NCBI GenBank assembly: GCA_030530785.1
Contig: JAUMUJ010000009.1
Location: 1 to 62,559, forward strand
Length of the DNA: 62,559 nt
Direction: 5' to 3'
DNA from: Moraxella sp.
GTDB lineage: Bacteria; Pseudomonadota; Gammaproteobacteria; Pseudomonadales; Moraxellaceae
The notes under the pieces were generated by a model, which worked only from the letters and a program-made list of their open reading frames with translations, was not told the DNA's origin and did not search any database. A program made the position numbers and the translations under genes. This document shows positions 219 through 12,759 of this stretch, one piece after another; the first letter of the stretch is position 1, and each line of letters starts with the position of its first letter.

Positions 219-263
219 GGGAAATTTTAAAAAAATTTATAACCCAATGATTTTTAAGAAAAA

Positions 264-768
264 TTGGCAAGCCGATAAGCCGGATTCTGTCGTGGACAAT
301 CATTCATCTAGACGCACAATCACTCATGCGTTCAAGCAACCTACCCGTATCCTAAGCGGGCCACTCATGGGATACCTATTTGGTCTTGCTACACGTGGAG
401 TTTACCTTGCCATGAACTGTCGCCAGTCATGCGGTGGGCTCTTACCCCACCGTTTCACCCTTACCTGACCACTCAACCAAATGTTTTTATATTGGATAAA
501 TTTATAAAAACAAATTACAATGCACCCTTATGCAAACTGTTGATTTTTGGATGGATAAATTTTCTCTACAAGCCCACATTTCCAAAAATATCTTAATCAA
601 ACAATGTCGTTTTAAAAATTTACAATAAACACTTGGTTGAGTGGTCGGGCGGTCTGTTCTCTGTTGCACTGGTCGTAGGCTTTCGCCCCCTAGCCGTTAG
701 CTAGCACGTTGCCCTATGTAGTCCGGACTTTCCTCCCTCCTTCTGGACGGCGATTGTCTGGCTTGCCA
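264..768 (-). ncRNA. rnpB: RNase P RNA (bacterial type A) with an expanded P12 arm
   Basis: This is the catalytic RNA of RNase P, which matures tRNA 5' ends. On the minus strand the conserved blocks appear in order: the 5' segment with GGAGGAAAGTCCGGACTACATAGG (complement of about 712-737), CGACCAGTGCAACAGAGA, AGGTAAGGGTGAAACGG, GGTAAACTCCACG, and the 3' block GACAGAATCCGGCTTATCGGC. The ends pair as P1 (266-273 with 760-767). The gene is about 505 nt, against 377 nt in Escherichia coli. The excess sits in P12, where 467-480 and 633-646 form a perfect 14-bp inverted repeat enclosing a 152-nt A/T-rich loop. The short open frames in this stretch are spurious. Confidence 0.95.
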
Positions 769-774
769 AAGACC

Positions 775-802
775 ATTATAGCATAATTTGGTAATTTTTC
801 AA
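775..802 (-). promoter_or_regulatory. rnpB promoter
   Basis: On the minus strand, TTGAAA (797-802) and a perfect TATAAT (775-780) are separated by 16 nt, 6-7 nt upstream of the P1 5' strand of rnpB. It slightly overlaps the 3' end of the broken NYN-LOTUS-TerD gene. Confidence 0.75.
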
Positions 803-2358
803 TCATCAACATCCACCCCAAATGCCATACAAAGCTCACGCAAACCGTGCCATACAAATTGCGGTCTTGGCACAACTTGCCAGCCCCCATCTGTTCTGTT
901 TAAAATCAGCAAAATCGCACTTTTGGCGGTGTCATTGGTGGGGGCGAATTCTCCCATAAAGAGCTGTCTGCCATCTTGTTCAATGATGATTTTGATGGGA
1001 GCATCTATCACATCAGACTCATGACTGGCACTAAACACAAGCCGATGAATGTCGCTACTTTGGGTGGACAGTTGGCACGCAAACATCTCATACACGATAT
1101 TACTGTCAAGCTCAATATTGCCATCACTGCTTTGGGTTTGCCCATAAAAAATCATGTCGCCATCATGACGCACTTTTTTATTATCGCCAAGTCGCCACAG
1201 TACCGAATCAATACCTGTTCCACGATACATATAGACATTTATTTTACCATTTAAAATCAATGGGGTCTGACTGACATCATCTGGGGTTAGTGGCTTTTGT
1301 GGCGTGCTGTCAGTCTTAGGTGCAACATCAGGCTGTTGGGTGGGTTTAGACGGTTGGTTTTTTAATTTGACATAGACACCGTTTGGTTGTTTTTTGATGT
1401 CAAATAGGCGAATGGCAGTGATTAGGTCGGAGAATTTTTTATAGCCATATTTATCCACATCAATGGCGGGGTTTTTATTTAACTCGCTGGCAATATGGCT
1501 GATGTTACACCAACCCTATTCGGCTTTGGGGTTGTTGGTTATTAAATCTTCAATGGTGGCTATTAGGATTTTGTCAGCTTGGAGTTGCTTGGGAGTATAC
1601 TTAAAAGGAGTTTTTGACTTGACATAAAGTTTAGCAAAATTATCCTTATCGTTTCTGACATAAAATAATTCAGTTGCTTTGATAAGATGAATGAGCTTTT
1701 CATAACCATAATTTTCATGATTTAATGCTGGATATTTTTTGTTAAATTCAAATAAAACCTCCCTATAATTAGACCAATTTTCATCATTTAAATCCGACAA
1801 ATCAGCAATCACTTTATTTAACGCATTGATAAGTACGGTGTCTTTTTGTAGTTTATCTCTTGATATTCTTGGTACAGATGGCACAAATTGGGCTGGCTGA
1901 TTGGATTTAGCAGGTTCTTGCTTTGCCTCATTTAAATTTTCTACTTCAAAAAACTCATCGCACGCTTGGCGAAAAGAGATAACCGCTTCTTTTTTGCCAA
2001 AGCCGTACACCTTAACGCCACTTTTGCGGACACGCACGGCAAGACTGGCAAAATCACTGTCGGACGACACCAAGCAAAAACCATCATACTCGCCACTGTG
2101 TAATAAATCCATCGCTTTAATAACAAGGGCGATGTCGGTGGCATTTTTGCCTTTGACGTAGGCGAATTGTTGCATGGGGTCAATGGCGTGGCGTAAAATT
2201 GCCTGTTGTCAGCTTGCCGACAAACCTGTCATTGACCAGTCGCCATAAATCTTTTTTGTGGAAATTTTACCAAGTTTTTCAATGGCTTGTAAGACTTTAT
2301 CTATCGTTTTGGCGGACGCATTATCAGCATCTATGAGTACGGCGATGTTATTTAACAT
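799..2358 (-). pseudogene. NYN nuclease-LOTUS-LOTUS-TerD fusion, interrupted by two in-frame stops
   Basis: One reading frame of about 520 codons runs from the ATG at 2358 (AGGA 8 nt upstream) to 799. A TGA (2209-2211) and a TAG (1516-1518) interrupt it; there is no frameshift. The N-terminal part has NYN (DUF88/LabA-like) RNase features: LIDADN, YGDWS, GKNATD and SSDSDF, with the metal-binding aspartates intact on both sides of the TGA. Two LOTUS/OST-HTH RNA-binding repeats follow, each ending in a YGY(E/K)K(L/F)..LI motif; the TAG falls inside the second. The last 150 or so residues resemble a TerD domain (DMIFYGQ..SSDG, then a WxV..HGL tail) without the GDNRTG..GDDE calcium motif. The TGA occupies a position that is usually Trp in this family. 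It is the last gene of the lemA-M48-protease unit, 39 bp after the protease gene. It is most simply a recent pseudogene; recoding or sequence error cannot be excluded. Confidence 0.75.
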
Positions 2359-2397
2359 GAAATTTTTCCTATAAAATGATAAAAAACTATGCAATAA

Positions 2398-3525
2398 TCA
2401 TGCCTGACAACCAACCAACCACAAAGCATCCTTACAGGTCTTGGCAAGTTGTGGGGTGGTCATGGGAGCGTGGGTTTGGGCGGTGTTTGGAATGCCTGCA
2501 CTTGTAAGCAGAGCGGACAGCAGTTGGTATTTGGTGGCGTAGTTCATGTTTTGGGCGTTGGTAATGCTGGACGACACCATGCCGATAACTTGACCTGTGG
2601 GGAGCATGAGCGGACTGCCACTAGACCCTGCCTGTATGGGGGCGGTAAATTGCAAAAAACGAATGTCATTGTGTATCCCCAAAAGCCCTGAGATGTTGCC
2701 CGATGTAACCTGTAACTGGCTTGTCAATCCTGATAGCGGAAAGCCCATCGTAACCACACTCTCGCCCAACAGCTCTACCTGCCCTGTCGCAAGCGGTAGT
2801 ACACAAGGTAAAGGTTCGTCCACCCGAATGAGTGCCGTATCACTGCCTTCATCGCTCATCACCACATACGCCTGCCTGTCAGCTCGCCCCTGCTGACGAA
2901 TGCCAATCATGCTTGCCCCATCTATAACATGATGACACGTCAAAAGATGATGTGTATCAATGGCAAATGCCGTCCCTGTCCAGCTCTCGCCTGCCATCGG
3001 TCGGCGTGGGGCGGTGTCGTCTGTGTGTTGGGGGAATTTTTCATATAAAGCAATGCCCAAATGCTCGCCAAATGCCTTTAAGCTCGCCCCTGTACACTCT
3101 GCCAACGCTCGGCATTTGTACTGACCGCCCCGCTCGTAGATTTCTAGCACCAACGCTGTCTTGATGTGCCTGTCATGAATGGGTACATCATAACGGATAT
3201 GCTCGTTTATGCGGATACTTAGGGCGTGTATCTCAGTGGCAGGCAACGCCAGATAGGGGTCGTGGTAGGCGTAGATGACCAGTTGTAATTTGGCAACGCC
3301 CCAAGCGAATACTTTGGGCAAATCCAACACCCACGCATTATCCCGATAAGTCGCCCAATCCTTTGGTTCGTGCAAGTAAGCTGGGCTTATTTTAGCGGTA
3401 CGGTTGGCGTCTAGGGCAAGCCACACCATGCCGACCGTTTGTCCAAACCTAAGCGAACTGTTGATACTGATGGTGGGCGATGTGTTGGCAAGGGCGGTGT
3501 TCGCCCCCAGTACAAGCGAAATCAT
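2398..3525 (-). CDS. TerD domain fused to a trypsin-like (S1/HtrA-type) serine protease
   Basis: A 375-residue protein with two domains. Residues 1-160 resemble a TerD domain: the start MISLVLGAN matches the TerD opening, and YERGGQYKCRALAE..G..LKAFGEHLGI matches its closing strand. The GDNRTG..GDDE calcium motif is absent. Residues 182-350 are a trypsin-fold protease with a catalytic triad of His199 (TCHHVI), Asp229 (SDTALI) and Ser302 (GSSGSP). There is no signal peptide or membrane segment, so it is probably cytoplasmic. The start at 3525 is preferred over the upstream one at 3585 because AAAGGA lies 7 nt before it and it matches TerD N termini. It lies 43 bp downstream of the M48 peptidase gene in the same unit. 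A stress-activated protease whose TerD part directs it to Ter complexes is inference. Confidence 0.85.
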   Translation of the reverse strand: MISLVLGANTALANTSPTISINSSLRFGQTVGMVWLALDANRTAKISPAYLHEPKDWATYRDNAWVLDLPKVFAWGVAKLQLVIYAYHDPYLALPATEIHALSIRINEHIRYDVPIHDRHIKTALVLEIYERGGQYKCRALAECTGASLKAFGEHLGIALYEKFPQHTDDTAPRRPMAGESWTGTAFAIDTHHLLTCHHVIDGASMIGIRQQGRADRQAYVVMSDEGSDTALIRVDEPLPCVLPLATGQVELLGESVVTMGFPLSGLTSQLQVTSGNISGLLGIHNDIRFLQFTAPIQAGSSGSPLMLPTGQVIGMVSSSITNAQNMNYATKYQLLSALLTSAGIPNTAQTHAPMTTPQLAKTCKDALWLVGCQA

Positions 3526-3568
3526 GGGTCTGTCCTTTGGTAATTTAACGCACACAAGTTTAACAACT

Positions 3569-5857
3569 TTATGCCTGCCAATCAATAACCACGCCCCACA
3601 GTAGCGACAACAGCCACATCAGCTCATGTTCATCTTGGCTTGTCTGACCGTCATACAAAAACGCCGTGATGAGCGTCTCCACAAAGGCACGATTGCCATC
3701 AATACTCATCAACACCACCACCCAATCACTCACAGACAAATGCCCCGCCCGATGACAAAGCCCGATAAGCTCATCATCATTCAGCGATACCGCCACGCCT
3801 GCCAGTCTTGCCCACCGCCGAATGCTGGTGGTGATTTTATCATGTCGCCCCATAATAAGACTGTTATCTTGACCGCTTGCCACCTGTGCCAGCACCACCA
3901 CAAAAGGCGACACATCACCGCCAAGATACGCCTTGACATCATCATAAGTGTGAGTGATGTCCCCATCATGTCGCTTTTGTAAAATGCTTAATAACACCGC
4001 CAATAACACTCCCCGATACATCACCGCCAGTCCCCCCACCCTGTGGCGAATGTCCGATGACGTGATGAGCGATGATAGGGTTTTTGTATAAATGCTTAGC
4101 AACTTATCATCATTGTCAGATAACGGCTCATCAAGCTCACAAAGGCGTTTTAGGGCAAGATAAATCAACAAACCATCTGCCTGCCTGTCATAGCGTGCCA
4201 CACTTTTTAGCAGTCCGTTTGGCAAATTGTGGGGTAATACAGGCTTGACACCATCAGAACATCTCCCCCAATAAATCGCCCGCAAATCCACCTGACCACC
4301 CACTTGCTCAAAAAAGCGACAACACAGCACGCACTCTAACACCGCCATGACAGACAAGGTTTCACGCAAGGCTGACGTGATGGCATAAGGCAGTTGGGCG
4401 TGGTTTAGGTCGCTTGGGACAAGATGACCATGCCGTGCCGTCAGTGTCTCATTGGTTGGGGCAGATTGCGGATAAAACAGTTGTCTGTCCTGTTCATACC
4501 AACCGTCCGCCATCAGCTTACCATCAATGACCACATCCTGCCAACCGTCATAAGACACCACCGTTTGACCACTGTCATTGATGGTGGCATTTTTTAATAA
4601 AGGATGTCTGTCATCAAGGGCGGGCTTATCAGACGTTAAAGGCTCTTGGTTGCTTTTAAAATGATAACTTTGGCAAAACCTGCGGGCATTATCCAATCGC
4701 TCTTTGGTGGCAGTGTCCAAACTGATGACGGGCATGGCACGGGCAACGACCTGCTGACGGTCATATAAAGGCGGGTGGCTTAGCGAATGGCTGTCCATCG
4801 GCTTAGGACTGGCAAAGAAAAAATGACTCATGCTCGTTGTCAAAGCAGGGTCATGTAACACGCTGTCATGTCGCATGAGACTTTGTAGGGCGTACACCAC
4901 ACCATCGCTACGGGTCAGCTGTATGCTGATGGCGTCCGCCAGATACTCTCTTTCGTGGTTAAATCTCCCCCTTACCCATTCGCCCAACATCATGCCAAGC
5001 ACGCCAAACAGCCGAAACAACACCACAGGCGTTATCATGATAAGATATGGCAAAAACAGTGTAGCTCGGGCATCGTCTCCAAACTGGCGATGACTTAAAT
5101 GGCGTTGGGTATTTTTTAGATAATCTACCCAGCTTTTTTGACTGCCGTCTAACACGACATCATCACCATGATAATCCTTATCAAACCGCCCAAGCAGATA
5201 CTCCTCCATCGCGTCCGCTAAGTCATACACCCACCCAAACATACTCATCATGACGTACATTCTAAGGTTTAACTCATGGTCGTTACAAATAAGATGTCCA
5301 AACTCATGCCCGATGAGTGCGTACAATTCATCATTGCTTAGCTTTTGGGTTGCCCCTTCGGTCAGCACCATGACCGTGTCAGACACGCCAAAGCCCGCCA
5401 CAAAGGCATTTACTCCCATCTCAAAAGGCAAAACATACAGCTTAGGCAAAGGCACGCCCGATGCGATTGCCATCTGTTCGGCAAATTCATGATACCGCCG
5501 ATAGTGGCTTGGCAAATGGCGTAATGACGGGGCTTTGATGTAGGTTTTAGTAAAAATGGTGTCGTCTTGCCCGTCATCATGGATAAACAGACGCACCGCA
5601 TGAACCGAGCCAGCCAGCGACAGACCACCTTTTTTGATTTTGTGGCGAGCGATGAGCAGTCCTGTGGCAAAATACACCCCCACCCCAAGCGATGACCCCA
5701 AAAACACGCTCACACCCAAACTGCCTGTCCATACATACGCCACCACGCCTGCCACCATCAGTAGCATGACTGCCTGCACGGTCATTACCACAAAAAACAG
5801 CCCGTACAACGCACGGCTTCGTCTGCTGTGGTGGCGTTGTTTGGCAAAAAAATCCAT
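3569..5857 (-). CDS. Large membrane-anchored M48 family (HtpX-like) metallopeptidase
   Basis: A 762-residue zinc peptidase of the Ste24/HtpX family. Two N-terminal membrane segments (about residues 18-42 and 46-70) precede the catalytic domain. The zinc motif HEFGH is at 184-188 and the third ligand lies in NHEREYLADA (about 300-309), so the active site looks intact. A further hydrophobic stretch is at about 266-292. The C-terminal half (about 400-762) is a long extension not found in the roughly 290-residue HtpX, and I do not recognise it. The gene starts 8 bp after lemA. Pairing of LemA with M48 peptidases is a recurrent arrangement, usually linked to envelope stress. It probably acts at the inner membrane. 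Confidence 0.9.
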   Translation of the reverse strand: MDFFAKQRHHSRRSRALYGLFFVVMTVQAVMLLMVAGVVAYVWTGSLGVSVFLGSSLGVGVYFATGLLIARHKIKKGGLSLAGSVHAVRLFIHDDGQDDTIFTKTYIKAPSLRHLPSHYRRYHEFAEQMAIASGVPLPKLYVLPFEMGVNAFVAGFGVSDTVMVLTEGATQKLSNDELYALIGHEFGHLICNDHELNLRMYVMMSMFGWVYDLADAMEEYLLGRFDKDYHGDDVVLDGSQKSWVDYLKNTQRHLSHRQFGDDARATLFLPYLIMITPVVLFRLFGVLGMMLGEWVRGRFNHEREYLADAISIQLTRSDGVVYALQSLMRHDSVLHDPALTTSMSHFFFASPKPMDSHSLSHPPLYDRQQVVARAMPVISLDTATKERLDNARRFCQSYHFKSNQEPLTSDKPALDDRHPLLKNATINDSGQTVVSYDGWQDVVIDGKLMADGWYEQDRQLFYPQSAPTNETLTARHGHLVPSDLNHAQLPYAITSALRETLSVMAVLECVLCCRFFEQVGGQVDLRAIYWGRCSDGVKPVLPHNLPNGLLKSVARYDRQADGLLIYLALKRLCELDEPLSDNDDKLLSIYTKTLSSLITSSDIRHRVGGLAVMYRGVLLAVLLSILQKRHDGDITHTYDDVKAYLGGDVSPFVVVLAQVASGQDNSLIMGRHDKITTSIRRWARLAGVAVSLNDDELIGLCHRAGHLSVSDWVVVLMSIDGNRAFVETLITAFLYDGQTSQDEHELMWLLSLLWGVVIDWQA

Positions 5858-5865
5858 CTGCCAAA

Positions 5866-6441
5866 TCAGCCAAGCCGTACCGTTGGGGGCGATTTAATGG
5901 AGCGGTCATTAAATTCCAACCCAAACAGCTCGCCAAAGCCAAACACGCCACTGATTAGGTTATTAGGAAAAATCTCACGGCGGTTATTATAACTCATCAC
6001 GCTGTCATTATAATGCTGACGAGCAAAGCCAATGCGGTTTTCGGTATAAGTCAGCTCATCAAACAGCTCTTTGATGACACTGTCGGCTTTTAAGTCAGGA
6101 TAATTTTCGGCAACGGCATAAAACCGTGCCAATGCTCCCGATAACACATTTTCAGCACTTGCCATTTGGGAGAGTTGCTCACCATCATCTGCCCGATGAT
6201 TGGTAAATTGACAAGCGACATTGCGGGCATTGATGACGTTTTCTAAGGTGGCTTTTTCGTGCACCAAATAGCCTTTGGCAACTTCCACAAGGTTGGGGAT
6301 TAGGTCATGACGGCGTTTTAATTGTACGTCTATTTGAGATAGGGCGTTTTTGACTTGGTTTTTTGAGATGACAAGCCCATTATAAATGAACCAAAACCAC
6401 ACCAAAATCACGCCCAAAATGACAGCAATCACAATCATCAT
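5866..6441 (-). CDS. lemA: LemA family membrane protein
   Basis: A 191-residue LemA-family protein. It has one N-terminal membrane segment (about residues 3-21) followed by a helical domain with the family motif DVQLKRRHDLIPNLVEVAKGY (about 41-61) and a conserved N(N/D)RREIFPNNLI-type block near the end. AAAGGAGCG immediately precedes two consecutive ATG codons (6441 and 6438), so the exact start is uncertain by one residue. It is the first gene of the lemA-M48-TerD/protease-NYN unit, downstream of its own promoter and a terminator that closes the preceding TerZ-like gene. Its molecular function is not established; here it most likely partners the adjacent peptidase. Confidence 0.9.
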   Translation of the reverse strand: MMIVIAVILGVILVWFWFIYNGLVISKNQVKNALSQIDVQLKRRHDLIPNLVEVAKGYLVHEKATLENVINARNVACQFTNHRADDGEQLSQMASAENVLSGALARFYAVAENYPDLKADSVIKELFDELTYTENRIGFARQHYNDSVMSYNNRREIFPNNLISGVFGFGELFGLEFNDRSIKSPPTVRLG

Positions 6442-6467
6442 CGCTCCTTTAATTGATTGATGATTTT

Positions 6468-6496
6468 ATTGTACCGCTAACGCCTTATATTTTCAA
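6468..6496 (-). promoter_or_regulatory. Promoter of the lemA unit
   Basis: On the minus strand, TTGAAA (6491-6496) and TACAAT (6468-6473) are separated by 17 nt, 26 bp before the lemA start and just after the terminator at 6506-6536. This suggests that lemA, the M48 peptidase, the TerD-protease and the NYN fusion are transcribed separately from the other ter genes. Confidence 0.5.
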
Positions 6497-6505
6497 AGTT
6501 TTTAT

Positions 6506-6536
6506 AAAAAACCGCCAAATCGCTTTGACGGTTTTT
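6506..6536 (-). terminator. Rho-independent terminator after the TerZ-like gene
   Basis: AAAAACCG pairs with CGGTTTTT around an inner caaa/tttg stem with one mismatch, with a T run on the minus strand. It lies 11 bp after the stop of the TerZ-like gene. Confidence 0.7.
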
Positions 6537-6547
6537 GTGGGCATTGG

Positions 6548-7150
6548 TTAAACGTGGGGGGTAATGGCAGGGATTAGGTCATTAAAGGTGCGACCGTTTG
6601 CCGTCTCGCCAATGGCGTGCATTTTCCATTCGCCATTATGACGATAGACCTTTGCCATAATCATGGCGGTGTGTGAGCCTTGTGCTGATAGGTTATAACG
6701 GGCAATCTCACTACCGTTACCGCCATTGACGATACGACAGTAGGCGTTTGCCACCGTCTCAAAGCTCTGTCCTGTAAAGCTGTTTACGGTAAATACCAAC
6801 GTCTGTACATCAGCGGGCACGGCAGATAGGTTTACCTTGATGACCTCATCATCGCCATCGCCTGCCCCTGTACGGTTGTCGCCTGTGTGAGTGATGGTGC
6901 CGTCTTTGGATTGTAATTGTCCAAAGTACACCACGTCCACAGGCTGTTTGGCGGTGTTGAACAATACCACAGACGCATCTAAGTCAATGCTACCGTCATT
7001 ACCACCACCACCGAACAGACCACTAAAAAAACCGCCCGATGATTTGGTGCTTGCCACGTCCCAGCCCAGCCCCATTTGAATGTGGGACAACGCACCGCCC
7101 GCTTCTTTTTCCAAAGAAATTTTTTGACCTTTTTGCAGATTAACCGCCAT
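6548..7150 (-). CDS. TerD-family protein, TerZ-like
   Basis: A 200-residue TerD-fold protein of the tellurite/stress system. It keeps the acidic calcium-binding signature GDNRTGAGDGDDE (around residue 98) and the closing YRHNGEWK strand. A glycine-rich insertion (GGFFSGLFGGGG) just before the DLDAS motif is characteristic of TerZ rather than TerD/TerE. The start at 7150 is chosen because it matches TerD N termini (MAVNLQKGQ) and has AAGGAA upstream; a longer 5' extension to 7240 is unlikely. A TATAAT-like -10 (7187-7192, minus strand) lies upstream. It sits 90 bp after the AIM24 gene and is followed by a terminator. Such proteins are cytoplasmic and associate with membrane TerC-type partners. 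Confidence 0.85.
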   Translation of the reverse strand: MAVNLQKGQKISLEKEAGGALSHIQMGLGWDVASTKSSGGFFSGLFGGGGNDGSIDLDASVVLFNTAKQPVDVVYFGQLQSKDGTITHTGDNRTGAGDGDDEVIKVNLSAVPADVQTLVFTVNSFTGQSFETVANAYCRIVNGGNGSEIARYNLSAQGSHTAMIMAKVYRHNGEWKMHAIGETANGRTFNDLIPAITPHV

Positions 7151-7240
7151 GATGAGTTCCTTAACAATGAAAAAAAACAAAAATTTATTATAACGCTGAT
7201 TGGAGTGTGATGTGTGAATTTTTGTAAAAAAATTATTCAC

Positions 7241-8002
7241 TCATTGTAGCAAACCGCCAAACAACCCACTGCCATTACTGCTTGCCCCGCTACTGGTGCC
7301 TGTACCCAGCACTTTGCTCAGCCAACCTTGATAATTATCACGGTTGCGAGAACACAGCACCACCTTACCGACACCGCTAAATTTTAATACCATGCCCTCG
7401 CCACTGGTTACTGAGTTGATGATGTTACCCAAAAAACCTTTGCTTTGGCTGGTGGAAACCGACAGTTCATAATCTAGGCGACTGTCCCAACACACCACAT
7501 GACCATTATCAATAATCACAGGCTTATCAGGCGTAACTTCAATCTCAAACAAACAACCAAAGCCCGAGACCACCACCTGCCCCACCCCTTCGGTTCGCAT
7601 GACCATAAATCCGCCCGTGTCGCCAAAAATCGCCCCACCCAGATTACGCTGAATGCTTGCTTTAATGTCCACACTACCGCTACTGGCAACAAACGCCCCA
7701 TCGGACAGCACATACTGGGCATTGCCCACGTCCAAAATCTGCATATCGCCGTCAAGCGTGGGAGCAAGCAGACAGTCGCCTTCGCCCCGAGTGGCTTGTA
7801 TTTTTTGTTGAAACAAAGACTCGCCATTGGCAAATCGCCTCATCAAGGCCTGCATGATGCCACCTTGTAGCGTGCCTTGAAGGTCTAGGTTATCTTCCAT
7901 CATGACCATCGCATTGGCTTCACAGTGCAAGCTGTCACCGTGTTTTAGGTTACAATGCAAAAATGGTTCGTTATCGCCCAATAAAGTAAAAGTTACTGCC
8001 AT
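7241..8002 (-). CDS. AIM24 family (TIGR00266-like) protein
   Basis: A 253-residue protein of the AIM24 family, recognised by its glycine-rich beta repeats and family phrases such as HCEANAMVMM, GDMQILDV, FVASSGSVDI, GFMVMRTEGVGQVVVSGFG and KFSGVGKVVL. There is no signal peptide or membrane segment. The C terminus is a Ser/Gly-rich tail. It starts 5 bp after the TerF-like gene, so the two are almost certainly co-transcribed and translationally coupled. The biochemical role of bacterial AIM24 proteins is unknown. The coupling to a TerD-vWA protein suggests a role in the same stress complex. Confidence 0.85.
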   Translation of the reverse strand: MAVTFTLLGDNEPFLHCNLKHGDSLHCEANAMVMMEDNLDLQGTLQGGIMQALMRRFANGESLFQQKIQATRGEGDCLLAPTLDGDMQILDVGNAQYVLSDGAFVASSGSVDIKASIQRNLGGAIFGDTGGFMVMRTEGVGQVVVSGFGCLFEIEVTPDKPVIIDNGHVVCWDSRLDYELSVSTSQSKGFLGNIINSVTSGEGMVLKFSGVGKVVLCSRNRDNYQGWLSKVLGTGTSSGASSNGSGLFGGLLQ

Positions 8003-8007
8003 TTTTC

Positions 8008-9324
8008 CTACCCTATGATGCCCTTTTGTTTGGCTTCATCAAGCCACTTTGGAAACTCTTCTAACAACAGCTCATAAAGCCTGTCATCGCTAATGCTGTT
8101 AATGCTGTCCACTTCAAAAAAGTTACAATTATCAACCACCCGCCCTGTCATGTCGTCCAGCTTTTTGAGTACGCCATAATTTCTGCCACCCACCCCAACA
8201 AATTGCCAAAAAATCGGCAGATTGGCACACTCGGTCAGCACCTTTTGCATTTGTCGAGAGCTACCGACCCCGCCGTCCGAGATAAACAGCACATAAACAG
8301 GCGTTTTGTCCGTCAAAGTGGCAGGATTGACTGATTGTGTGAGTTTGCCAAAAAATCCTTGACTTTGGGCGAGGCAATAATAATCAATCACCGCTTTAAT
8401 GGCGGGGATTTCGTTATTAAATCTTGCCCCCACCGCCCAATTTTTCCAGCCATGCTTGGTGGTATTGACAAAATCATTGATGTTTTGTAAGGTTACGTCA
8501 TCAAGTTGCGTGGTCAGATTGGCAAATGCCCAACATTCAAAACTGCCATCATCATCAAAGTTAATGGCAAGGGGCATGAGCCGATTGACGACCTTTTGTA
8601 CATCGCCATTTTTGTACTGCCAATTCATAGAGCCTGACGCATCAAGCACAAGAGCGACTCGGGCTTTAACATCAAGCAAACCCTTTTTTTCTAGGGTAAT
8701 GAGCGATTTTTTGGTCAAATCAATGATGGACGGATTGCCCGTTTGCTCGGCTTTTTGCAGGGACAGTTTTTTCTTTAAATCCAGTGTACTGGTGTGATTT
8801 TGGGCGGGTGGATGTGCAGGTATATCGTCCGCCACTTCGCCCCCAAAATGACGTATCAGGCTTGCCAATCCGCCATCAAAGCCCTGCCCCACCGCATTGA
8901 CCCGCCACTCGCCTTTTTTATAAAAGCTTAGTAGCATGACTGCCTTTTCGTCCGCTAAATCAGTGGGGATAAAGCTCACCATCGTTTGACCATGTTGCAC
9001 CACAGACACCGTCAAGCCGTGCAAATCCCTTGCCACACCCTGACCATCTATGCTGATGGCAAGCGTGAGCGTGTGGATTTTTGGGTTTAGGTCAGACAAA
9101 CGAATGCTAAATTTTTGACCATCAAAACCAACCGCACCGCACGGGCTTTTTGGCTGATTATAAAAAGTCATGTAGGCTTCATCGGACAGTCTGCCAAGCT
9201 CATCAAGCCCAAAGATTGCCACATCGGTAACGACTGCCGAGCGGTGCGACACCATGACATCAAAGCCCTCCACGCCCAGCCCGAATGCGGATATGGGGGA
9301 TTTTTGACCTTTAATGAGTTGCAT
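8008..9324 (-). CDS. terF: TerF-like protein: TerD domain fused to a von Willebrand A domain
   Basis: A 438-residue protein. Residues 1-165 form a TerD domain that keeps the fold markers (MTFYNQ, KKGEWRVNAVGQGFDGGL) but not the GDNRTG..GDDE calcium motif. A variable linker follows, then a vWA domain from about 221 with the metal-ion-dependent adhesion motif DASGS (228-232) and FISDGG later. This architecture matches TerF of classical ter operons. The start at 9324 has AAAGGA 8 nt upstream and matches TerD N termini; the in-frame start 39 bp further out is less likely. It is followed closely by the AIM24 gene. It may act as a scaffold for metal-dependent assembly of Ter proteins (inference). 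Confidence 0.88.
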   Translation of the reverse strand: MQLIKGQKSPISAFGLGVEGFDVMVSHRSAVVTDVAIFGLDELGRLSDEAYMTFYNQPKSPCGAVGFDGQKFSIRLSDLNPKIHTLTLAISIDGQGVARDLHGLTVSVVQHGQTMVSFIPTDLADEKAVMLLSFYKKGEWRVNAVGQGFDGGLASLIRHFGGEVADDIPAHPPAQNHTSTLDLKKKLSLQKAEQTGNPSIIDLTKKSLITLEKKGLLDVKARVALVLDASGSMNWQYKNGDVQKVVNRLMPLAINFDDDGSFECWAFANLTTQLDDVTLQNINDFVNTTKHGWKNWAVGARFNNEIPAIKAVIDYYCLAQSQGFFGKLTQSVNPATLTDKTPVYVLFISDGGVGSSRQMQKVLTECANLPIFWQFVGVGGRNYGVLKKLDDMTGRVVDNCNFFEVDSINSISDDRLYELLLEEFPKWLDEAKQKGIIG

Positions 9325-9353
9325 ACCGAGTCCTTTGTTGATAAAAAGTGGCA

Positions 9354-9385
9354 AAAAAGGCAAAACCGTGCGATTCTGCCTTTTT
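9354..9385 (-). terminator. Terminator after the second TerD gene
   Basis: An AAAAAGGCA/TGCCTTTTT stem with a 14-nt loop and a T run on the minus strand, between the terD paralogue ending at 9395 and the TerF-like gene. Confidence 0.65.
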
Positions 9386-9394
9386 GTTTAAAGA

Positions 9395-9970
9395 TTATAC
9401 CGCCACACCATAGGAGCTTGCCAAAGGACCAAGCCCACCTGTAAAGCCTTGACCGACCGCACGGAACTTCCATTCGCCATTATGCTTATAAAGCTCACCA
9501 AAAATCATTGCCGTTTCGGTGGAGCTGTCTTCGGACAAGTCATAACGAGCCACTTCTGCCCCGCCTTGTGAGTTTACGATACGGATATAGGCATCGCCGA
9601 CTTGACCGAAGTTTTGGTTGCGGGCTTGCCCGTCATAGATGACCGCACAGAACACCACTTTGGCAACATCGGCAGGGACACGGGTCAAATCCACTTTGAC
9701 AATCTCATCATCGCCATCGCCTTCACCGGTGCGGTTGTCGCCTGTATGCTCTACCGAACCATCAGCAGATGTTAGGTTATTAAAAAAGATAAAATCGGCA
9801 TCGGTGCGAACTTTACCATCTTCTTTGACCAAAAACGCCACCGCATCAAGGTCAAACGCCTGACCGTCTGTGGCACGGGGATTCCAGCCCAGACCAACCG
9901 CCATCTGGGCAAGGGTGGGGGCTTCTTTACTAAGATTGACGTTACCGCCTTTGGTTAAGCTGATTGCCAT
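9395..9970 (-). CDS. TerD-family protein (TerD/TerE type)
   Basis: A 191-residue canonical TerD-fold protein. It has the N-terminal [20 protein letters not shown]-type strand, [16 protein letters not shown], the complete [13 protein letters not shown] calcium-binding signature and the closing [16 protein letters not shown] strand. The start at 9970 (AAGGAAA upstream) is preferred over one 18 bp further out. It closely resembles the terD gene at 11250-11828, so it is probably TerD or TerE; the symbol cannot be settled by eye. It is flanked by terminators on both sides and so appears to be its own transcription unit. Confidence 0.88.
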
Positions 9971-9989
9971 GTTCATTTTCCTTATCAAG

Positions 9990-10016
9990 TAAAAAACGTG
10001 AGCTTAAAACTCACGT
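9990..10016 (-). terminator. Terminator after the DUF475 gene
   Basis: A perfect 7-bp stem ACGTGAG/CTCACGT (9996-10002 with 10010-10016), followed on the minus strand by a run of six T. It lies between the DUF475 gene and the terD paralogue. Confidence 0.7.
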
Positions 10017-10077
10017 CCTACTATAACAAAATGACCATGCTTGCACAAGCCTTATTTGTTATTATATGTATCAAAAA

Positions 10078-11163
10078 TTAACCAGTTTCGTCTTCTGTGC
10101 TGGGGTTATTTTTACGATACTGGACAGACGCTATCACAGATGCCACAATAAAGGCAATCCCAATCAGACCCGTAACCATCTCTGGCACATGAAATTTCAT
10201 GGAAATGAGCATGATAATCGCCAATGCCCCGATGGCATAGTGAGCCCCATGTTCTAGGTACACAAACTCATCTAATGTGCCTTTTTCCACCAAAAAGATG
10301 GTCATAGAACGCACAAACATCGCTCCGATGGCAAGACCTATCATGATGATAATCACATCATTGGTGATAGCAAACGCCCCGATGACCCCATCAAAACTGA
10401 ACGATGCATCCAGCACTTCTAAATACAAAAAACCTGCAATGCCCCCTTTGGCAATCGCTCCTGCCACTTCGTTACCATCCACTTTTTCATCGTCATCATC
10501 GCCTTCAAGCAACGTGGATAAAACATTGACCCCCATATAGATGAGTATGCCCCACACGCCTGCCATCAGCACGGCTGATTTTTGGGCTTCGTCCACCCAA
10601 AGCAGTGAAATCATGAGCGTAACGATGGCAACAAACACACTCATGGCATCTACCTTACCAAAGCGAGCCAGCCTGCTTTCTAGCCAGCCAAACCAATGAA
10701 TGTCTTTATCATCAAACACAAAATTTAAAAAAACCAGCAGTAGGAACATTCCCCCAAAAGCGGCGATTTCGGCGTGGTGAGCGATGAGCTTAGCAGAATA
10801 CTCTTTGGGGTCATTGAGTGCCAAATCCACCACTTGCCCCATGCTCATGTCTGCCGTTACCGCCACAATGACGATGGGAAACACCAAACGCATACCAAAC
10901 ACAGCGATGAGCATACCCACCGTCAAAAAAATCGTTTTCCAAAATTTATCCCAATGTTTTAGTACGGACGCATTAACCACCGCATTATCAAAGGACAGCG
11001 AGATTTCCATGAGTGCCAACACCAGCGTAAAAAATAATGCTGATACCAAGGCGGTCGTCCCGCCGTGTATAAAACCCCAATAGCCCGCCCCTATCAGTGC
11101 CACCACCGTAAAGATGATGTCAAAATAAAAGAACTTTAAATTTTTCATCATAGATGACATTTT
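10078..11163 (-). CDS. DUF475 family integral membrane protein (TerC-like)
   Basis: A roughly 361-residue polytopic membrane protein of the DUF475/TerC superfamily, with about eight to nine hydrophobic segments. The family signatures are present: EISLSFDNAVVNA in the second segment and LEVLDASFSFDGVIGAFAIT in the second half. Both carry the membrane-embedded acidic residues typical of TerC-like putative metal exporters. An acidic loop (EGDDDDEKVD) separates the two halves. Start choice is uncertain: ATG codons at 11163, 11154 and 11151 and a TTG at 11178 are all in frame, and GGAA at about 11166-11169 best suits 11154. It lies between terD and its paralogue and probably forms the membrane anchor or ion channel of the Ter complex. 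Confidence 0.88.
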   Translation of the reverse strand, partial: KMSSMMKNLKFFYFDIIFTVVALIGAGYWGFIHGGTTALVSALFFTLVLALMEISLSFDNAVVNASVLKHWDKFWKTIFLTVGMLIAVFGMRLVFPIVIVAVTADMSMGQVVDLALNDPKEYSAKLIAHHAEIAAFGGMFLLLVFLNFVFDDKDIHWFGWLESRLARFGKVDAMSVFVAIVTLMISLLWVDEAQKSAVLMAGVWGILIYMGVNVLSTLLEGDDDDEKVDGNEVAGAIAKGGIAGFLYLEVLDASFSFDGVIGAFAITNDVIIIMIGLAIGAMFVRSMTIFLVEKGTLDEFVYLEHGAHYAIGALAIIMLISMKFHVPEMVTGLIGIAFIVASVIASVQYRKNNPSTEDETG

Positions 11164-11176
11164 CCAAACAATAATC

Positions 11177-11207
11177 AAAAAAAGTGGTAATCAAACTACC
11201 ACTTTTT
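11177..11207 (-). terminator. Terminator after terD
   Basis: AAAAAGTGGTA (11179-11189) pairs perfectly with TACCACTTTTT (11197-11207) around a 7-nt loop. T runs on both sides make it potentially bidirectional. It separates terD from the DUF475 gene. Confidence 0.75.
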
Positions 11208-11249
11208 ATCAATAAACACAATGACTGTTGTGTATCGCATGAATGCAAG

Positions 11250-11828
11250 CTAGGCGATGTTAATGCCGTATTGAGCACACATCGCTCCCAGTCCACCGCC
11301 ATAGCCTTGACCGACCGCACGGAACTTCCATTCGCCATTATGACGATACACTTCGCCGAACACCATCGCCGTTTCAATGGAATAATCTTCGGCTAAATCA
11401 AAACGCACCACTTCGGCTCCTGTTTGTTCATTGACCACACGGATAAACGCATTGGCAACTTGCCCGAAGTTTTGACCACGAGCTTGGGCATCGTGAATGG
11501 TTACGGTGATGGCAATCTTTTCAATCTCGGGCGACAGACGGGTCAAATCCACCTTAATCACCTCGTCATCACCATCGCCAAGCCCCGTGCGGTTATCACC
11601 CGTATGCTCTACCGCCCCATCGGTGGATTTTAATTGATTATAAAAAATAAAATCATGGTCGCCACGCACTTTGCCCGTAGCGGTCAGCAAAAACGCACTG
11701 GCATCAAGGTCAAAATCCTGCCCTGATGTGGCTCGCTCGTCCCAACCTAAGCCGATGAGCAGTTTGGTTAAAGTAGGGTCGGTTTTTGATAGGGATAAAT
11801 TACCACCTTTATTTAATGAAATTGCCAT
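11250..11828 (-). CDS. terD: Tellurium resistance protein TerD
   Basis: A 192-residue protein that closely follows the enterobacterial TerD pattern from end to end: [67 protein letters not shown] (calcium site), [23 protein letters not shown], and [29 protein letters not shown] followed by QYGIN. It is cytoplasmic, calcium-binding, and implicated in resistance to tellurite, oxidants, phage and colicins. A GGAGC ribosome-binding site lies 8 nt before the ATG. It is the first gene of the Ter island, followed by its own terminator. Confidence 0.95.

Positions 11829-11928: not shown

Positions 11929-12759
<831 letters not shown>

Follow-up and report, generated by a model that had tools for sequence, protein, structure and literature searches.

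A Ter island in Moraxella that looks like half of a split Ter system and pairs a TerD-type protease fusion with a broken NYN-LOTUS RNase gene

Does a run of ten co-directional genes rich in TerD domains form one system and, if so, which of its genes belong to it? The window analysed here is contig C6 (62,559 nucleotides) of a 1.9 Mb Moraxella sp. draft genome that is 86.9% complete, and the run in question, hereafter the island, lies at 799-11828 between coaD and rnpB. An earlier note on this DNA had read it as a single stress island whose lemA-M48 peptidase pair, TerD-protease fusion and NYN-LOTUS-TerD fusion make up an effector arm of a TerD complex. All ten genes are indeed on the (-) strand, and Pfam searches of the window proteins identified, from the coaD side, TerD, DUF475/TerC, TerD, TerD-vWA, AIM24, TerD, LemA, M48, trypsin and pieces of NYN, OST-HTH and TerD, which recovers the three free TerD proteins, TerD-vWA, DUF475, AIM24, LemA and M48 as first described. 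The same ten genes occur in identical order in a second genome, Moraxella sp. VT-16-12 (G025, where loci L015 and L118 are one contig), and the island is therefore no assembly accident. It looks like half of a split Ter system, and on balance we think it probable that this Moraxella lineage has divided a Ter stress-response system in two and that the island holds the half with scaffold and enzymes, in which TerD, TerC-like and TerF proteins would receive a signal and dock enzymes.

The gene at 2398-3525 (-) encodes a trypsin-like protease (Pfam Trypsin_2, 2.9e-22) preceded by a TerA/TerD-like domain; the alignment places its likely start at 3525, not 3585. Its N-terminal half scores 15.6 bits with the Pfam TerD model, below the cut-off of 25.3. 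In profile-profile comparison, the same part matched free TerD at 97.5% and TerA at 99.0%, as against <0.5% for four unrelated profiles (AIM24, PRTase, DUF475 and its own protease half). The protease thus carries what these profiles identify as a degenerate TerD-type domain, and the fusion described in the earlier note holds in both its parts, with the TerD part degenerate. His, Asp and Ser are invariant across 20 aligned protease rows, and loose motif patterns recovered Asp in 83, His in 116 and Ser in all of 118 long rows; by their motifs, these residues are the putative catalytic ones. With a TerD-type domain and apparently intact catalytic residues, the window protein is a predicted member of the TerD-trypsin family. 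This architecture, with the TerD-type domain N-terminal to the trypsin-like protease, is shared with plasmid proteins and with Pseudomonas syringae, for which the available part of PMC2605481 listed it in 2008. Ten phage records matched only 34-41% of the protein, in its protease part, and a phage origin was rejected. PADLOC, given ten island, module and relative proteins, matched the protease to its RT-Protease models (through the protease domain) and to HamA, matched an M. oblonga NYN protein weakly to HEC-09, and returned no Ter-specific match.

Protease matches at E <1e-40 were present in 62 of 249 family genomes (a count of listed rows): four of the 22 genomes of the window's genus, 52 of Psychrobacter (g9), three of g7 and one each of g8, g12 and g16, with none in g15. 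A free TerD-type gene lay nearby in 37 of 41 loci (40 fetched stretches plus the window). In a separate scan of named records, 138 relatives were found and the best 80 kept, giving 79 distinct loci. At least two Ter biosynthetic genes stand beside the protease gene in 71 of these 79, the best of the 138 found, and by group this amounts to 52/53 Psychrobacter, 16/16 Pseudomonas, 3/7 other and 0/3 Moraxella loci. The named scan overlaps the genomes of the family survey (L118, for example, is the contig of L015), so the two sets of counts are not independent, and the automatic open reading frame and BLAST labels may miss divergent genes. One locus counted with g7, L144, is titled Streptomyces cinereus; its length (5095) and the position of its protease match equal those of L033 from Moraxellaceae genome G042, and the record is probably mislabelled or contaminated. 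On plasmids, 240 records had a protease match, 127 of them from Pseudomonas, and one Pseudomonas plasmid ter operon reads ATP-grasp, protease, PRTase, phosphatase, StiP, HpcH/HpaI lyase, HAD-IB, TerD, TerD, TerB, TerC, TerD, TerD. Given this operon and the 71 of 79 loci in which biosynthetic genes adjoin it, the protease gene counts as an ordinary member of Ter loci, and the linkage also suggests a signal or product. In most of the Psychrobacter loci examined, the two halves stand side by side with the protease gene within the biosynthetic operon. In the plasmid operon the protease gene is flanked by ATP-grasp and PRTase; that of the window is instead separated from the module and stands beside the core TerD genes.

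The biosynthetic genes are nonetheless present in the window's genome, outside the window. Contig C31 carries at 1739-6896 (locus L061) a five-gene Ter biosynthetic module encoding a C-C lyase, StiP-PELOTA, HAD, PRTase_2-TRSP and ATP-grasp, with no TerD gene labelled beside it; neither this module nor the broken state of the RNase gene described below was noticed in the earlier note. PRTase_2 matched above cut-off in three of the four island genomes (the window's genome, VT-16-12 and G036) and in none of 18 others (Fisher p 0.0026, uncorrected for kinship), three of which gave weak matches under the cut-off. In each of the three island genomes it belongs to a five-gene module without protease. 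In VT-16-12 the module sits some 100 kb into a contig that does not carry the island, and in G036 island and module are each inside separate contigs. On the ATP-grasp side, the module of the window's genome has six flanking genes in common with VT-16-12 and two with G036. A divergent pair of SWIM zinc-finger and DUF5691 genes stands beside the module (L061, 7033-9932) and also in VT-16-12 and G036; it evolves faster than the module and is possibly a further part of the system. PADLOC gave no match for the three proteins sent from these fast-changing genes beside the module.

These linkages bear on a rival explanation, in which the island is a plain tellurite and oxidant tolerance locus whose protease and RNase remove damaged protein and RNA, with no dedicated signal. 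In its favour, the free TerD proteins are close to the solved TerD structure 2kxt, and the available part of PMC5822837 discusses ter genes as what underlies resistance to tellurite in Psychrobacter glacincola. Against it stand the linkage of the protease gene to biosynthetic genes in 71 of 79 loci and the co-occurrence of the separated halves across genomes, and we consider it unlikely, if still the strongest of the alternatives; signal and docking is judged likelier.

The second enzyme gene, at 799-2358 (-), was recovered by Pfam as NYN, OST-HTH and TerD pieces. Its NYN-LOTUS-LOTUS-TerD frame, starting at about 2358, is interrupted by stops at 2209-2211 and 1516-1518, so no intact fusion is encoded in the window, where NYN and LOTUS do not share one open protein; the fusion proposed in the earlier note is there in its domains but not as an intact gene. 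The stops are one TGA and one TAG, and on inspection table 11 leaves the genes on either side open; an alternative genetic code was considered and set aside. A middle NYN piece retains 91-93% identity to two relatives, so the breaks are either young or assembly errors. In VT-16-12 the gene carries another frame break, close to its start, no NYN piece was found at the island of G036, and M. oblonga (G075) has an open copy of 521 aa with NYN, two LOTUS domains and TerD. The RNase arm has probably been lost in the window strain. Such losses could also mean that the whole island is a decaying remnant on its way out, its module elsewhere and its RNase gene broken, and the presence of the TerD-protease in only 4 of 22 genus genomes would fit. 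However, the remaining nine genes have open frames, the free TerD proteins share 82-95% identity with those of three relatives, the catalytic residues of the protease are kept and the module genes are complete on C31; we regard decay of the island as improbable.

Across relatives the RNase gene has a fixed place. In all 15 named loci that have an NYN gene (Moraxella and Psychrobacter), it directly follows the protease gene, and in 13 of them, all Psychrobacter, PRTase follows in turn, with overlapping frames in nine of the 13. Six more Psychrobacter (g9) genomes that lack the protease fusion carry the NYN gene in an operon of this type, where its immediate neighbour is ATP-grasp on the upstream side in five and PRTase on the downstream side in five. 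The NYN-LOTUS gene belongs to the Ter system, and protease and NYN are a conserved pair in the Ter loci of Moraxella and Psychrobacter, which is what a search for neighbourhoods holding TerD-trypsin and NYN-LOTUS-TerD together, proposed in the earlier note, was meant to reveal. It is therefore reasonable to see these two genes as an enzyme arm linked to a complex of TerD type. Five of seven Ter-locus copies matched Pfam TerD, one of them below cut-off. The genus has three further NYN-LOTUS genes (L107-L109), none of them in a Ter locus. Among 369 genomes of the class searched at E 1e-25, a limit that could miss a weak tail on its own, 42 matched; the TerD tail was matched by the window only, and the other listed matches end by residue 269 of 440. 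In 7 of 71 loci, the slot between the protease gene and the next module gene is filled by a gene that is not NYN: a DnaJ-domain protein in L138 (11629-12699), look-alikes of it in L151 and L179 (P. glacincola and P. immobilis), TerF in Thiothrix (L187) and opposite-strand genes in three. These few cases are suggestive of a cargo slot after the protease gene.

In profile-profile comparison the tail of the NYN protein matched TerD at 98.4% and TerA at 99.6%, with <0.5% for AIM24 and PRTase, and TerA-like domains are thus detected in both fusions by this method. Two acidic motifs, which we take to be calcium-binding, separate the free TerD proteins from the fusions. Counted as simple patterns on pooled rows that include overlapping records, DLDA and GDGDDE occur respectively in 64 and 64 of 64 TerD1 rows, in 89 and 86 of 90 TerD2 rows and in 0 and 89 of 98 TerD3 rows, and neither occurs in any of 122 protease fusions, 21 NYN rows, 92 TerA or 12 TerF.

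These data allow us to propose how such a system could work. Anantharaman, Iyer and Aravind reportedly proposed in 2012 that the Ter system includes a module for a nucleoside-like metabolite. The available parts of PMC7824862 and PMC7159879 likewise put forward a nucleoside or nucleotide derivative as the module product and signal, with TerD as a possible sensor. Under our preferred reading, stress or invasion would lead the module to make a nucleoside-like signal, which a complex of TerC-like, TerD and TerF proteins would sense. The TerA-like domains without acidic motifs would then dock the protease, and in relatives also the RNase, onto this complex, and the docked enzymes may cut proteins and RNA of the cell or the invader. 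The lemA-M48 genes would be a separate membrane-proteolysis pair. More tentatively, Ter in general may be a modular signal-to-enzyme system, in which a TerD/TerC complex, acted on by a nucleoside-like signal, takes up interchangeable enzymes (the protease, a LOTUS-guided RNase and perhaps further ones encoded in that operon slot), each by way of a docking domain that is TerA-like and degenerate.

Several points weigh against a split signalling system of this kind. The test of module against island counts 22 related genomes as independent. The window belongs to a draft in which C6:799-11828 and C31:1739-6896 are both near contig ends, so that the distance between them is not proven and the same split in this genome is argued solely by the matching ATP-grasp-side flank. 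In M. oblonga the island is present, its RNase gene is open and no module was found; island and module are therefore not strictly dependent. The NYN gene is present in only 15 of 79 named loci, is broken in two of three Moraxella copies, and shows no TerD tail by Pfam in two of the seven Ter-locus copies (L104 and L114). Its tail matches the N-terminal part of the protease at only 9.5% in profile-profile comparison, with no clear mutual match. Since TerA and TerF likewise lack the acidic motif patterns, their loss is not special to the enzyme fusions. Finally, signal, sensing and docking are steps that we infer.

The membrane-proteolysis genes, LemA at 5866-6441 (-) (Pfam 1.5e-48) and an M48 metallopeptidase with HEFGH at 3569-5857 (-) (Pfam 4.1e-16), are the part of the proposed effector arm that the comparisons do not support. 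Of the 41 loci, the window among them, two hold the pair within the island, as does 1 of 79 named loci, and the named scan labelled it in none of its 53 Psychrobacter and 16 Pseudomonas loci. Ten of 22 genus genomes have a lemA-M48 pair whose M48 protein measures 762-881 aa (M48 matches <1e-40): within the island in the window's genome and VT-16-12, and elsewhere in the genome in G036, G075, G100, G109, G081, G010, G089 and G097. Two of these eight carry a Ter island on another contig. A conserved linkage of the pair to TerD genes was not found, and this is the outcome that the earlier note had named as refuting the unit, here for its lemA-M48 part. The trees join the window and VT-16-12 for M48 (100/100), for LemA only at 80/84. 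Most simply, lemA-M48 is a lineage-specific insertion that entered the island a single time, in the common ancestor shared by the window strain and VT-16-12. A ten-gene single system was accordingly rejected; even the narrower idea of a single Ter-complex arm for proteolysis and RNA cleavage, built from lemA-M48, protease and NYN, is improbable against these counts and is judged less likely than either signal and docking or damage control, despite the shared ten-gene order in VT-16-12 and the presence of the pair somewhere in 4/4 island genomes as against 6/18 others (Fisher p 0.029, uncorrected for kinship).

The core of the island consists of three free TerD, the DUF475/TerC-like protein, TerF and AIM24. 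TerD1 (11250-11828, 288.7 bits with Pfam TerD) carries both acidic motifs, DLDA and GDGDDE; TerD2 (9407-9970) scores 283.2 bits and matches solved TerD 2kxt at E 2.3e-83; and TerD3 (6548-7150) matches Pfam TerD at 6.7e-56. The DUF475/TerC-like integral membrane protein (10078-11178; DUF475 1.6e-114, TerC 4.9e-15), TerF (8008-9327; vWA-TerF-like 1.3e-73, TerD 1.2e-20) and the AIM24/TIGR00266-type protein (7241-8002; AIM24 1.5e-54) complete the set, all on the (-) strand. Several TerD proteins with a TerC-like membrane protein, and TerF and AIM24 as neighbours, are the marks of a Ter system. As the earlier note had it, terA and terB of the classical terZABCDEF operon are not visible: TerB was found in 0/22 genus genomes, where control searches matched in 4/14 and the window's genome is 86.9% complete, and Pfam gave no separate terA among the six TerD matches of this genome.

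Compared with the Ter system of Anantharaman 2012, as given in the available part of PMC7824862, the window's genome has free TerD, TerC-like, TerF and an AIM24 neighbour together with ATP-grasp, PRTase, HAD, StiP and C-C lyase; it differs in its module on another contig, the lack of terA in the window and a TerD-type RNase fusion, and the genus sample in its lack of terB. The Psychrobacter ter cluster, in the available part of PMC5822837, likewise has TerD-type genes, terC and TIGR00266/AIM24, the TIGR00266 gene being in all analysed Psychrobacter ter clusters, and unlike the window it has terA, inverted; neither trypsin nor peptidase is mentioned in the main text of that paper as available. 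For bacterial LK-nuclease/NYN and OST-HTH genes, the available part of PMC2848206 (2010) found no conserved-neighbourhood linkage to other known RNA-processing systems and considered them perhaps standalone. The window-type gene similarly joins an NYN-type nuclease with one or two LOTUS domains; unlike those proteins, it has a conserved place in the Ter operon and often a TerD-type tail. HEPN, a different RNase fold, is beside TerD genes on few occasions according to the available part of PMC3710099, which is again a predicted RNase linked to TerD genes, unlike ours in its fold and in being unfused to TerD.

Since the Ter system and the TerD-protease fusion are already known, the novelty here is limited; that TerD-trypsin was reported in 2008 had been missed in the earlier note. 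Among the paper titles and abstract openings listed, none described NYN-LOTUS-TerD or lemA-M48 in Ter loci, and the 2012 Ter paper may list these fusions. To our knowledge, the mechanism of the Ter proteins is still open. The most interesting feature is the bacterial LOTUS-type RNase, whose gene keeps a fixed position in the operon and which is possibly one among several enzymes borne by a TerA-like domain. Fusions of enzymes to TerD-type domains offer assayable outputs, namely protein and RNA cleavage, and the Moraxella split puts the half presumed to make the signal apart from the half presumed to use it, so that the signalling hypothesis can be tested. If it is true, bacterial LOTUS-NYN RNases would gain a defined pathway and functional context.

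The island is bounded by rnpB (RNase P RNA, 260-769 (-), Rfam RF00010, 313.5 bits) and, at the opposite end, by coaD (12184-12687 (-)), which is present in 21/22 genus genomes. Among 15 island-less coaD loci searched for rnpB (short loci L076 and L077 left out), rnpB lies near coaD in nine and was not found at the other six, longer stretches included; given the nine, the island fills a site that is empty in those loci. A stem of 13 pairs with a T-rich tail at 11207-11179 (-), between TerD1 and DUF475, is a candidate terminator or attenuator, and a promoter-like site (10 of 12) lies upstream of lemA at 6496-6468. Such stems and promoter-like sites are only moderately above shuffled sequence (31 vs 20.8, sd 4.6, and 24 vs 15.1, sd 4.1), and the ten genes are not clearly one operon.

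Some further genes lie next to the island or resemble its parts. A small ferredoxin-like gene at 11932-12174 (-), between coaD and TerD1, follows coaD in 17/21 genus coaD loci, island-less ones included. A lone divergent TerD-domain protein of about 230 aa is encoded outside the island on contig C18 of the window's genome (L099, 5592-6287), with a comparable match in 18/22 genus genomes. In G109 (63% complete), a lone DUF475 gene after coaD (L213, 2821-3870) is a possible island remnant, the only TerD found there being the lone divergent one. G045, one of the island-less genomes of the genus, has a free TerD (70% to TerD1) next to a TerA-like protein (L100, 6087-7424).

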